Below, piece by piece: positions 13,340-17,102 of a stretch of DNA of 64,000 nucleotides (positions within the stretch are counted from its first letter, which is position 1; each line of letters starts with the position of its first letter). The DNA comes from Knoellia subterranea KCTC 19937 (GTDB lineage: Bacteria; Actinomycetota; Actinomycetes; Actinomycetales; Dermatophilaceae): contig NZ_AVPK01000001.1 of the NCBI RefSeq assembly GCF_000768685.1, positions 124,001 through 188,000 of the forward strand, in the 5' to 3' direction. Below the pieces are notes generated by a model. That model was not told where the DNA came from, made no database searches, and saw only the letters and a program-made list of their open reading frames with translations. Position numbers and translations under genes: made by a program.

Positions 13340-13801
13340 CTACTTCTTCTTCTCGCTGACGTAGATCGTGATGACACCCTCGACGACGACCGTGCCGTCC
13401 TCGCGAATGGCGCGCACCCGCACCGGCACGTCGCCCGGCTCCTCCCAGTCGGCGGGGTCGGTGTCCGCGGTGCAGAGCAGGTCGGTCGTCGACTTCGCGG
13501 TGTAGGCGACCTCCATGCCCTTGGGGATCCACCGGCGATCCTTGGGCGTCGTCGCCTCCGCGAGGAGGCCCATGGCGGCCTCGAGTCCGTTGCACACGGC
13601 GATCGCGTGGACGGTGCCGATGTGGTTCTGGACGGCGCGACGCTTGGCGATCGTCAGCTCAGCGTGGTGCGGGCGCACCTCACGGATCTGCGGACGGACC
13701 GACCAGAAGTACGGCGCCTTCTGAGCGAAGAGGAAGGAGAACGCCTGCTTCCCGAGGGGCAGGGAGGTGAGCTTCTGGTACAGGGCGAAGGTGTCCGGCA
13801 T
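13340..13801 (-). CDS. DUF4442 hotdog-fold thioesterase-like protein
   Basis: Protein of 153 residues in the DUF4442 group of hotdog-fold proteins (PaaI-like thioesterase superfamily). The diagnostic stretch is QNHIGTVHAIAVCNGLEAA (residues about 60-78), which in hotdog enzymes packs the long helix carrying active-site residues. SLPLGKQAFSFLFAQKAPYF opens the protein. The ATG lies inside one of the window's repeated octamers (13796-13803), which fixes the start codon's surroundings. A C-terminal SEKKK tail is present. The acyl substrate, if any, is unknown. Confidence 0.87.
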   Translation of the reverse strand: MPDTFALYQKLTSLPLGKQAFSFLFAQKAPYFWSVRPQIREVRPHHAELTIAKRRAVQNHIGTVHAIAVCNGLEAAMGLLAEATTPKDRRWIPKGMEVAYTAKSTTDLLCTADTDPADWEEPGDVPVRVRAIREDGTVVVEGVITIYVSEKKK

Positions 13802-13853
13802 ACACCGATGTTACTTCCCGGTATGCCGGCCGGTCGCCACCCGTGGCAATCGC

Positions 13854-13940: not shown

Positions 13941-15806
13941 CTACTTCTTCTTGGGCTCGGCGGCGTCGGAGGACAGCGCTGCGATGAAGGCCTCCGGCGG
14001 AACCTCGACGGTGCCGATGTTCTTCATGCGCTTCTTGCCGGCCTTCTGCTTCTCGAGCAGCTTGCGCTTGCGGCTGATGTCACCGCCGTAGCACTTGGCG
14101 AGGACGTCCTTGCGGATGGCCCGGATGTTCTCGCGGGCAATGATCCGGGCGCCGATGGCTGCCTGGATCGGCACCTCGAACTGCTGCCTCGGGATGAGCT
14201 CCTTGAGCTTGCCCGCCATCATGTTGCCGTAGGCGTAGGCCTTGTCCTTGTGGACGATCGAGCTGAAGGCGTCGACGTTCTCGCCCTGGAGGAGGATGTC
14301 GACCTTGACGAGGTCGGCCGCCTGGTCCCCGGCCTCCTGGTAGTCCAGCGAGGCGTAGCCGCGGGTACGCGACTTCAGCTGGTCGAAGAAGTCGAAGACG
14401 ATCTCGGCGAGCGGCAGCGTGTAGCGCATCTCGACCCGGTCCTCGGAGAGGTAGTCCATGCCGAGCAACTGTCCGCGCTTGCCCTGGCAGAGCTCCATGA
14501 TTGCGCCGATGAACTCGCTCGGTGCCAGGATCGTCGCCCGGACGACCGGCTCGCGCACCTCGGCGACCTTGCCGTAGGGGAACTCGCTCGGGTTCGTGAC
14601 GACCACGACCGATCCGTCGTCCATCGTCACGTCGTAGACGACGTTGGGCTGCGTCGAGATGAGGTCGAGGTCGAACTCGCGCTCGAGGCGCTCACGCACG
14701 ATCTCGAGGTGCAGCAGGCCGAGGAAGCCACATCGGAAACCGAAGCCGAGGGCGGCGGACGTCTCGGGCTCGTAGACGAGGGCCGCGTCATTGAGCTTGA
14801 GCTTGTCGAGGGCGTCGCGCAGGTCCGGGTAGTCGGATCCGTCGATCGGATAGAGGCCCGAGAAGACCATCGGCTTGGGGTCGCGGTAGCCACCGAGGGC
14901 CCCGGCCGCTGGCTTGGCCGAGTTCGTCACCGTGTCACCGACCCGGGACTGGCGCACGTCCTTCACGCCGGTGATGAGGTAGCCGACCTCGCCGACGCCG
15001 AGGCCCTTGCCGGGCACCGGCTCCGGTGAGATGACGCCGATCTCGAGCAGCTCGTGCGTCGCCTTGGTCGACATCATCGAGATGCGCTCACGCGGGTTGA
15101 GGTTGCCGTCGACGACACGGACATAGGTGACGACACCGCGATAGGTGTCGTAGACCGAGTCGAAGATCATCGCGCGCGCCGGCGCGTCCGGGTCACCGAC
15201 CGGCGACGGGAACTGGCGCACGATCTGGTCGAGCAGCGGCTCGACACCGACACCGGTCTTGCCCGACACGAGCAGGCAGTCCTCGGGCTCGCACCCGATG
15301 AGGCCGGCCAGCTCCTCGGCGTACTTCTCGGGCTGGGCCGCGGGAAGGTCGATCTTGTTGAGCACCGGGATGATCGTGAGCTCGTTCTCCATCGCGAGAT
15401 AGAGGTTGGCGAGCGTCTGCGCCTCGATGCCCTGCGCCGCGTCGACGAGGAGGACCGCACCCTCACAGGCAGCCAGCGAGCGCGACACCTCGTAGGTGAA
15501 GTCGACGTGCCCGGGGGTGTCGATCATGTTGAGGATGTAGTTGCCCGACTCCCCCGCCGCGTTGACGCTCTCCCACGGCATGCGCACGGCCTGGCTCTTG
15601 ATCGTGATGCCGCGCTCACGCTCGATGTCCATGCGGTCGAGGTACTGCGCGCGCATGGCCCGGTCGTCGACGACGCCGGTGATCTGGAGCATCCGGTCGG
15701 CCAGTGTGGACTTGCCGTGGTCGATATGGGCGATGATGCAGAAGTTGCGGATCGCCTCCGGCGGCGTGGCGTGCGGCTGCAGCGCGGTGCGGGCGCGGGG
15801 AGACAC
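13941..15806 (-). CDS. lepA: elongation factor 4 (LepA)
   Basis: Ribosome-associated GTPase that back-translocates stalled elongation complexes or assists ribosome assembly. Length of 621 residues is normal. G1 [10 protein letters not shown]3 DTPGHVDF and G4 NKID are intact. The domain order G, II, III, LepA-specific C-terminal domain is visible, the last with [20 protein letters not shown]. It begins with GTG at 15806. The C-terminal [10 protein letters not shown] tail is short and basic. Order lepA-(hemW) is conserved in the phylum. Confidence 0.97.
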
Positions 15807-15895
15807 AGTGGCAAAGTCCTCGTGACGGTGACGAACAGGGAGTCGGGACAGTCTCCCACGTCGGAACCACCCGTCCGAACCGGCGACAAATTGGC

Positions 15896-15935
15896 TACCG
15901 GGCGGTAACGTGCCCGAGGAGGCTACCGCCCGGTA
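15896..15935. promoter_or_regulatory. two tandem TACCGNNCGGTA palindromes
   Basis: TACCGGGCGGTA (15896-15907) and TACCGCCCGGTA (15924-15935) lie 28 bases apart, together also forming a 15-bp inverted repeat (15893-15907 with 15924-15938). They sit in the 156-base region between the divergent lepA and secreted-protein genes, 28 bases before the latter's ATG. The form fits a pair of operator sites for a dimeric repressor such as a TetR-family protein. The regulator is not identifiable here. Confidence 0.6.
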
Positions 15936-15962
15936 GCCCAGATCTCGTGGAGGAACCCGACA

Positions 15963-16586
15963 ATGACGTCTCGCACCACGCTTCGCCGTTCATCGCTCGC
16001 CGTCGCCGCCGCTGGCGCGGCCACCGCTCTCACCTTTGCCGCTGCACCCTCTGCCAGCGCTGCCCCCATTGGGGTCGGCTGGGACGTCAACGTCACCACC
16101 ACCGTGAAGAAGCTCAACCAGCAGATCACCTTCCCGCAGACCCGCTTCCCCGCTCAGGTCGACATCTTCGGCGACGGGTCGATCTCCGGAAACCTCCAGC
16201 TGCCCGACGCCACGAGCACGCTCAAGGTCGGCAGCCTCCCGCTCGCCAAGGTCACCCTGGCCGTCGTCCCGACCAAGCCCGTGTCCGGCAAGCTCACCGG
16301 TCTCGACGTCGTGGCGAACCAGGAGTTCAACATCCACATCAAAAAGATCGAGCCCCTCGGTCTGCCCATCAACCTCGTGGGCAACAACTGCAAGACGGCC
16401 ACGCCCGTCAAGAGCCAGCTGACGGGAACGCTGACGGGCCTGCTCGACCCCTACACCCTCAAGGGTGAATACACGATCCCGAAGTTCTCCAACTGCGGTC
16501 TGAGCACGTGGCTCATCAACCTCGTGATCCCCGGCACGGGCAACACGATGTCCGCCGACTTCACCAACTTCAAGATCGGCAGCTGA
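15963..16586 (+). CDS. secreted protein of unknown function
   Basis: Exported protein of 207 residues. The signal peptide has basic start [14 protein letters not shown], a hydrophobic core rich in Ala and a likely cleavage after SASA near residue 33. The mature part is beta-rich and uncharged, with [29 protein letters not shown] and [13 protein letters not shown]; two Cys could form one disulfide. A ribosome site GGAGGAA precedes the ATG. I do not recognise a named domain; similar secreted proteins seem to occur in other actinobacteria. It is preceded by two palindromic operators and ended by a classic terminator, so it is a tightly controlled single-gene unit. Confidence 0.8.
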
Positions 16587-16600
16587 CCCAGCCGCGACAG

Positions 16601-16650
16601 AACGGGAGGTGTATGCCGTGGGGTCCCCACGGCATACACCTCCCGTTTTT
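16601..16650 (+). terminator. intrinsic terminator built from two inverted octamers
   Basis: Perfect 23-bp stem (16601-16623 with 16625-16647) followed by a run of T, starting 14 bases after the secreted-protein stop. The two arms each contain the window's repeated octamer (GTATGCCG at 16611, CGGCATAC at 16630). This is the clearest L-shaped (hairpin plus U-tract) terminator in the window. Confidence 0.93.
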
Positions 16651-16673
16651 CGTCGTTGAGTAGCGTGAAGCGC

Positions 16674-17102
16674 ATGAGCTACCCCGGCGACTTCCATGGA
16701 CCACTCGACCCGATCTGGGCACCCGACGCCGATGGCGAACCGGACGCGGGCGAGGTCGTGTGGGCGCACGTGCCGTACGAGGAGGACGCGACCCAGGGCA
16801 AGGACCGGCCCGTCCTGATCGTCGGATGGGACGGGGACTGGGTGCTGGGGATGTATCTCACGAGCAAGGACCACGACCGCGACCACGAGCAGGAGCGTCA
16901 AGCGGGCCGGCTGTGGGTCGACGTCGGCCCCGGCGGCTGGGACAGCAAAGGACGCCCGTCGGAGGCCCGCATCAACCGGATCGTCCGCATCGACCCGGCC
17001 ACGATCCGGCGCGAGGGAGCCGTCCTCGATCGGGCGCGATGGGACGAGGTCATGGCCGCGTTCCACCGGATTCAGCCCGAGGCCGGTTCGAACATCGGTT
17101 AA
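16674..17102 (+). CDS. PemK/MazF-like protein
   Basis: Protein of 142 residues with the PemK/MazF-type small beta-barrel of mRNA-interferase toxins. I chose the ATG at 16674 (MSYPGDFHGPLDP), as an earlier GTG at 16656 lies close to the terminator. The fold signature GEVVWAHVPYEEDATQGKDRPVLIVG starts near residue 25 and is split here as GEVVWAHVPYEED and GKDRPVLIVGWD. RINRIVRIDPATIRREG matches the family's later strand. No antitoxin gene adjoins it. Such solitary actinobacterial members may not act as toxins. Confidence 0.78.
   Translation: MSYPGDFHGPLDPIWAPDADGEPDAGEVVWAHVPYEEDATQGKDRPVLIVGWDGDWVLGMYLTSKDHDRDHEQERQAGRLWVDVGPGGWDSKGRPSEARINRIVRIDPATIRREGAVLDRARWDEVMAAFHRIQPEAGSNIG

Follow-up and report, generated by a model that had tools for sequence, protein, structure and literature searches.

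Two copies of the octamer GTATGCCG face each other in the stem of a hairpin between two genes of the window, by which we mean the whole 64-kb stretch of DNA that was analysed. Does this pair act as a terminator, and what does it tell about the role of the octamer itself? The original prediction had described inverted copies at 16611 and 16630, stem arms of 23 bases and a T-run, and this description turned out to be exact. The locus is composed as follows.

15963..16586, + strand: 207-aa ORF with no Pfam match, stop 14 nt before the hairpin
16601..16647, + strand: perfect inverted repeat with 23-base arms round T16624, predicted intrinsic terminator hairpin
16601-16623: 5' arm (AACGGGAGGTGTATGCCGTGGGG); 16624: centre T; 16625-16647: 3' arm
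16611..16618, + strand: octamer GTATGCCG within the 5' arm
16630..16637, - strand: octamer (reading CGGCATAC on the + strand) within the 3' arm, convergent with the 5'-arm copy
16646..16650, + strand: T5 run, predicted terminator tail, the first two T also paired in the stem
16665..17102, + strand: MazF/PemK-like gene downstream of the hairpin on the same strand

The secondary structure was evaluated by RNA folding. The hairpin RNA reaches -53.7 kcal/mol (z -11.1), a value that none of 200 shuffles equals. The minus strand folds comparably (z -11.2); a long T-run behind the stem is absent on that strand. Like intrinsic (Rho-independent) terminators, the element combines a GC-rich stem (22 bp), a short loop (3 nt) and a T-tail (T5) and lies directly past a gene, 14 nt behind the 207-aa ORF. 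Unlike usual intrinsic terminators, the core of its stem is an invariant word found genome-wide, while the outer stem covaries.

The covariation is seen in the congeners. Orthologues of the 207-aa ORF carry a similar hairpin on their 3' side in three of the eight (G076, G077 and G079). The octamers are identical there, and stem positions 1, 6 and 10 are changed on both sides such that pairing is retained. Across the four sequences these changes are compensatory with a single mispair, at position 11 in G077. In G073 and G074 an inverted pair is located immediately before the MazF-like gene; the 207-aa gene was not found there. No inverted pair was found in the stretches retrieved around the locus from G072, G075 and G078. 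Provided the predicted terminator works, the MazF/PemK-like gene would be insulated from the gene upstream. Taken alone the element is an ordinary hairpin; it is unusual as a member of a genome-wide system.

Abundance, flanks and conservation of the octamer

The window contains 42 copies of GTATGCCG compared to 1.2 expected from a second-order Markov model, which gives the octamer the highest z of all 8-mers in the window. The copies, and a second inverted pair formed by two of them, are located as follows.

+ strand, GTATGCCG: 1290, 6968, 8208, 9508, 13821, 16611, 18448, 22810, 24118, 25705, 30097, 32150, 35213, 41965, 44346, 47022, 49272, 57488, 62285
Minus strand, GTATGCCG: 1427, 2401, 6148, 8890, 11008, 13796, 16630, 20013, 22011, 25167, 27441, 29465, 31979, 33675, 35362, 36274, 40794, 41632, 46336, 53629, 54754, 58033, 61723
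13796..13828: second inverted pair, divergent (CGGCATAC at 13796, GTATGCCG at 13821)

The whole genome from which the window is taken (G000, 3,566,056 bp in 33 contigs) has 2,444 copies, evenly distributed over both strands (1,233 and 1,211). The reversed word, used as control, is found 54 times (22 and 32). The octamer thus shows the copy number and strand neutrality of DUS/USS-type uptake signals (about 1,000 copies or more). It occurs 31 times as often as expected, its 24 one-base neighbours 0 to 2.9 times.

We sampled 858 kb of this genome using gene calls of our own (771 genes). The sample comprises 553 copies, of which 399 are genic, 141 intergenic and 13 located at gene edges. The density amounts to 1.41/kb between genes and 0.53/kb within genes, with a mean spacing of 1,532 bp. 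Two reading frames account for 310 of the 399 genic copies. The codons used are costly: 39 of the 63 ATA codons and 169 of the 902 TAT codons in the called genes lie inside octamers.

To evaluate conservation, the initial 36 kb of the window were compared to eight congeners, which gave 13 to 25 aligned octamers per congener. Between 61 and 80% of the aligned octamers are intact, compared to 29-34% of permuted words. Conservation is hence about twice that of permuted words and exceeds that of the surroundings, as in a DUS/USS-type signal. A signal of this type would be expected to be scarce in recently acquired DNA. Eight of the nine octamer-free gaps longer than 6 kb in the own sequence are below mean GC. 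When recently acquired genes were probed by GC3, low-GC3 genes were not tag-poor, which does not support the expectation. Two octamer-free stretches stand out by length, G000:C1:209843-224975 (15.1 kb, GC 0.625) and 415882-429063 (13.2 kb, GC 0.648), at a sample mean of 0.690. They are perhaps genomic islands.

Sequence preferences extend beyond the octamer. Among the own sites, 49% have T at position +8 and 42% at +18 (background 15.5%), and A is enriched at -11 to -7 and at -5. The share of T at +18 is 52% between genes and 36-47% in those five coding frame classes that comprise at least 13 sites; the preference is absent in the sixth frame class, which has 5 sites. The maximum among 11 control words is 21%. 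As the preference at +8 and +18 is largely independent of the reading frame, it suggests that the DNA is what is read, in double-stranded form and through contacts spaced by about a helical turn. The commonest intergenic extension of GTATGCCG in the own genome is T followed by C.

The congeners display the same extended motif; they have homologous sites in common and are hence not independent. At loci named for other genera (109 sites) the motif is weak, with T in 35% at +8 and 23% at +18. It is likewise weak in G178 (29% and 25%) and hardly seen in G089 or in f19, a second family of the order.

Close pairs and their terminator features

According to the original prediction, inverted octamer pairs should be commoner than chance across the genome. 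We counted close pairs (gap 0-30 bp) in the whole own genome and derived the expectations from random placement based on copy counts. There are 53 convergent and 35 divergent pairs, where 13.0 each are expected, and 3 direct pairs compared to 26.0 expected. Inverted order is thus found in 88 of the 91 close pairs. The excess is confined to inverted order, direct neighbours are avoided, and the genome-wide count bears out the prediction.

The flanks of 43 distinct pairs among the 88 were inspected for T-tails, with 4,000 random intergenic spots serving as control. At least five T within the 8 bases behind the stem on either strand are present in 11 of 23 convergent and 2 of 20 divergent pairs (control 4.6%). 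Lowering the threshold to four T gives 18 of 23 and 5 of 20 (control 19.4%). If one mismatch is allowed, pairing continues for a mean of 5 bases outside the octamers, compared to 1 base in the control. The view that paired octamers may serve as terminators is therefore one that the T-tails back for the convergent order.

In the 858-kb sample 23 neighbouring pairs with a gap of up to 40 were found among the 553 copies. All 16 convergent ones and six of the seven divergent ones are intergenic. None of the 21 intergenic pairs with known neighbours lies between divergent genes, compared to 122 of 466 gaps of at least 30 bp. A strict hairpin-plus-T rule without mismatches yields 28 strand-wise predictions in the sample, nine of which contain paired octamers in their stems; the hairpin of the window is counted twice among these. 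With a looser rule it is 10 of 54 predictions; this rule did not place the hairpin of the window among those behind genes, whereas the strict rule does.

Close inverted pairs in excess, some of them terminator-like, are a trait which GTATGCCG has in common with DUS/USS-type signals. T-tails, intergenic placement and covariation in congeners make it very probable that the convergent pair at 16601-16650 is a terminator. Divergent pairs truly exist too, yet termination does not account for their excess.

Dialects and candidate uptake genes in related genomes

By LepA, the nearest named relatives are Tetrasphaera australiensis (90%), Terrabacter, Janibacter and Intrasporangium; judged from these names, the own family is most likely the Dermatophilaceae/Intrasporangiaceae group. 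We surveyed 186 genomes of the own family, representing 53 genera. GTATGCCG is found at 120/Mb or more in 107 of them, at less than 30/Mb in 62 and at intermediate density in 17. A one-base variant is rich in 16 of the 79 genomes under 120/Mb, namely GGATGCCG in five and GTACGCCG in 11.

GGATGCCG genomes: G017, G018, G034, G035, G178 (698 to 1,248 per Mb)
GTACGCCG genomes: G002, G003, G004, G012, G013, G014, G015, G083, G087, G088, G089 (207 to 930 per Mb)

G004 is the lowest and a borderline case among the latter. Taken together, 123 of the 186 genomes (107 and 16) have one of the three words, which amounts to a shared word with dialects, and 63 have none of them; these counts hold at the cut-offs used for rich genomes (120/Mb and a fivefold or greater excess over the reversed control), which were set after the counts were known. 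Left uncounted were several g46 genomes (GTACGCCG about 5 times) as well as G104 and G167, where GGATGCCG reaches 5 to 7 times the control and a density of about 150 and 220 per Mb. G153 and G158 show a weak excess of GGATGCCG (about 4 times).

Some genomes are mixed. G036 and G037 have about 690-700 copies of GGATGCCG and 380-396 of GTATGCCG per Mb, and G143 and G146 have 625 and 836 copies of GTATGCCG together with 865 and 1,011 of GTACGCCG. Replacement of one word by another is therefore not always complete. A switch within a single genus is seen for G083 with 19 copies of GTATGCCG and 1,463 of GTACGCCG, compared to 3,681 and 1,062 copies of GTATGCCG in its congeners G084 and G085.

Pair excess in the dialects is weak. 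In 420 kb of G178 (GGATGCCG) 7 convergent, 6 divergent and 1 direct pair were found, with about 3.1, 3.1 and 6.2 expected. The same amount of G089 (GTACGCCG) has 6, 1 and 4 with about 2.1, 2.1 and 4.2 expected (expected direct pairs in the G000 sample: 5.6). In these 420 kb each, the strict hairpin-plus-T rule yields no prediction with an octamer pair and the looser rule one per genome. G089 moreover has nearly equal densities between genes (0.89/kb) and in coding regions (0.80/kb).

The second family f19 has up to 4,831 copies of GGATGCCG, compared to 248 of the reversed word (G276). It is not uniformly enriched, as G250 has 485 and 149. CGGCATCC ranks among the top three 8-mers of the Microbacterium- or Microbacteriaceae-named loci L093, L102, L113 and L117 and is not among the top three in the named Leifsonia, Curtobacterium and Rhodoluna loci. 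Hence f19 is probably, though not surely, Microbacteriaceae. Loci named for other families have 0-2 copies of GTATGCCG.

Other words were noted in passing. CGAAGGGG is abundant in octamer-poor genera (32 vs 4.2, 31 vs 3.7 and 11 vs 2.1 expected), the sets being L161 and L162 (g27), L165 and L166 (g35) and L045 (Janibacter sp. Soil728). In 13 other sets it occurs at 0-1.1 times expectation. GAAGGGGG, which overlaps CGAAGGGG, is found in both orientations, genic as well as intergenic. CGAAGGGG is possibly a fourth, unrelated tag. In Serinicoccus (L066 and L069) the top 8-mer is AATGGTTG with 4 and 5 copies at an expectation of 0.01-0.02; it may be a short repeat of local extent.

Concerning the uptake machinery, ComEA (SLBB+HHH) and ComEC are encoded in the own genome. 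ComEC is near universal in the family (180 of 186 genomes) including tag-poor genera and therefore does not track the tag; it is ruled out as the factor doing so. The marker of type IVa pili, PilM_2, was found in seven of the 186 genomes and not in G000. A type IVa pilus is thus disfavoured as the uptake machine and Tad/Flp pili would be likelier. A tad/flp cluster is present at L131:10661-14041 and 15645-16454 with two TadE-like genes, one of them slightly under the Pfam cut-off, and two T2SSF genes. TadA is there as a C-terminal piece alone, and an integrase-like ORF (rve, under the Pfam cut-off) is located nearby. This is the sole tad locus found in the approximately one quarter of the genome that was read, so a further one may exist.

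The genes comEA-comEC and holA-rpsT-lepA are neighbours in many actinobacteria. Here comEA-comEC (L160:3011-6453, contig C14) is located apart from holA-rpsT-lepA (window:13941-19566, contig C1).

Tad-dependent transformation is known in Micrococcus luteus, according to excerpts of PMC4322843 and of the review PMC6370729. The literature matches listed include no competence experiment in the genera surveyed here.

A probable self-tag and the readings that compete with it

The original prediction had taken terminator behaviour as a point in favour of the octamer being a functional tag. This idea gains further weight from the dialects, from conservation and from the extended motif present in most reading frames. 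We consider it likely, with a probability of roughly 70%, that GTATGCCG is a strand-neutral, genome-wide DNA self-tag kept for sequence-preferring uptake and recombination by analogy to DUS/USS, and that the pair at 16601-16650, one of the 53 convergent pairs of the genome, has been co-opted as a terminator. A putative receptor would recognise the DNA duplex by the GTATGCCG core, the A-rich stretch on its 5' side and the T at +8 and +18. Tagged DNA of kin would be favoured on import via ComEA/ComEC, probably by filaments of the Tad/Flp type. Recombination would spread and preserve the tags, which may explain why they are conserved despite the costly codons. Where two tags converge just past a gene, a GC-rich hairpin would result, the T-tail would come from the A-rich stretch 5' of one tag, and RNA polymerase would presumably stop; structure, place and covariation of the hairpin at 16601-16650 are consistent with this step. 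The terminators thus look like a secondary use or by-product of a genome-wide tag. In some lineages receptor specificity may have drifted by single bases, giving rise to GTATGCCG, GGATGCCG and GTACGCCG as dialects; in others the tag system may have been lost or replaced.

Genome-wide density and a motif that extends at the DNA level would also suit a chromosomal protein without any role in uptake (nucleoid, segregation, or an orphan methyltransferase combined with biased repair, a mechanism proposed for cyanobacterial HIP1), whose binding or modification site the octamer would be, with terminators reusing a common word. This reading gains from the fact that uptake receptor and competence are assigned to GTATGCCG by analogy, and it has a precedent in HIP1, an abundant octamer without a demonstrated uptake role as far as excerpts of PMC4390886 tell. 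We nevertheless regard it as rather unlikely: the word is non-palindromic, direct pairs are depleted while inverted ones are in excess, and single-base dialects as well as a convergent order with A-rich flank and T-tail closely match DUS/USS. An oriented motif for recombination or segregation in the manner of Chi or KOPS would agree with a length of 8 bp and high abundance. Orientation was judged in contiguous stretches; whole-genome strand balance alone is uninformative. The strands are even in all four stretches of 200-400 kb, with 114/123 (400 kb) and 66/63 (200 kb) in the own genome, 185/202 in G178 and 157/174 in G089 (400 kb each). Orientation of this kind is hence disfavoured, inverted pairing would be left unexplained, and the reading is highly unlikely.

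That the octamers are merely a family of terminators or REP-like mobile repeats is suggested by the resemblance of convergent pairs to terminators. Set against this, 399 of 553 sampled copies are genic, and 23 close pairs in all are found among the 553. A purely terminator role is thus rejected for most copies, which are mostly single and genic. The flanks lack a long common repeat and share nothing past positional preferences, on which grounds a REP or mobile element is rejected too; we give the whole reading hardly any chance. The concentration of 310 of 399 coding copies in two frames could hint at a compositional artefact that codon usage produces at high genomic GC. This is rejected on the use of the rare codons ATA and TAT, on the higher density between genes and on the absence of the word in 40-kb samples of relatives with even higher GC, e.g. 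g27 and g46, so that its probability is practically nil.

For the self-tag reading the known uptake signals are the closest comparison; the papers are cited for what their excerpts state. Uptake-sequence dialects and inverted pairs are described for Neisseriaceae (PMC3630211), and so are copies that are strongly conserved and spaced about 1.5 kb apart (PMC2397512). The +- pair order is favoured because the 5' A-tract supplies the tail (PMC1852404), and uptake signals occur within terminators of both Neisseriaceae and Pasteurellaceae (PMC13020248). The neisserial DUS (AT-GCCGTCTGAA and variants, receptor ComP) resembles GTATGCCG by thousands of copies, strand neutrality and about one copy per 1.5 kb. 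Dialects a few bases apart, terminator-linked inverted pairs, a commoner +- order and high conservation are likewise common to both (PMC3630211, PMC2397512, PMC1852404). In contrast, GTATGCCG is another word, is actinobacterial and is known here from sequence alone, and 63 of the 186 family genomes lack GTATGCCG, GGATGCCG and GTACGCCG altogether. As the pilus marker PilM was not found, the system cannot be classed as neisserial DUS-ComP. The neisserial AT-DUS (ATGCCGTCTGAA, PMC3630211) and GTATGCCG both contain ATGCCG, probably by chance.

The Pasteurellaceae USS (AAGTGCGGT and extended flanks) shares with GTATGCCG a core with weaker downstream positions about a helical turn apart, and some of its inverted pairs sit in terminators (PMC1852404). 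GTATGCCG differs from it in the word, in single preferred T positions instead of A/T tracts, and in that nucleotide sequence is the source of what is known here. The cyanobacterial HIP1 (GCGATCGC) is, in the excerpts of PMC4390886, similar to GTATGCCG as a very abundant octamer of unproven function. It is palindromic and discussed together with methyltransferases, whereas GTATGCCG is not its own reverse complement and forms inverted-pair hairpins.

Titles and abstract openings of the literature matches listed, which comprise neither subscription papers nor preprints, contain no report of GTATGCCG, GGATGCCG or GTACGCCG or of any actinobacterial uptake sequence. The single paper found to contain CGGCATAC is a Ralstonia typing paper. 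The uptake signals described in the literature found belong to Neisseriaceae and Pasteurellaceae.

On a wider scale we lean towards the view that actinobacteria of at least two families may own a sequence-specific self-recognition. It would comprise an octamer tag with single-base dialects (GTATGCCG, GGATGCCG, GTACGCCG, perhaps the unrelated CGAAGGGG in Janibacter-like genera), a receptor on a filament of the Tad/Flp type instead of type IVa and reuse of the tag in terminators. If true, uptake signals would have originated independently once more and, judging by the literature found, for the first time outside Proteobacteria. Should uptake be driven by the tag, transformation that is sequence-specific and has dialects would have arisen anew in high-GC Gram-positives using a different pilus, and the contrast of G083 to G084 and G085 within one genus would make the receptor findable. 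Genetic access to actinobacteria of soil and sludge would be a further benefit.
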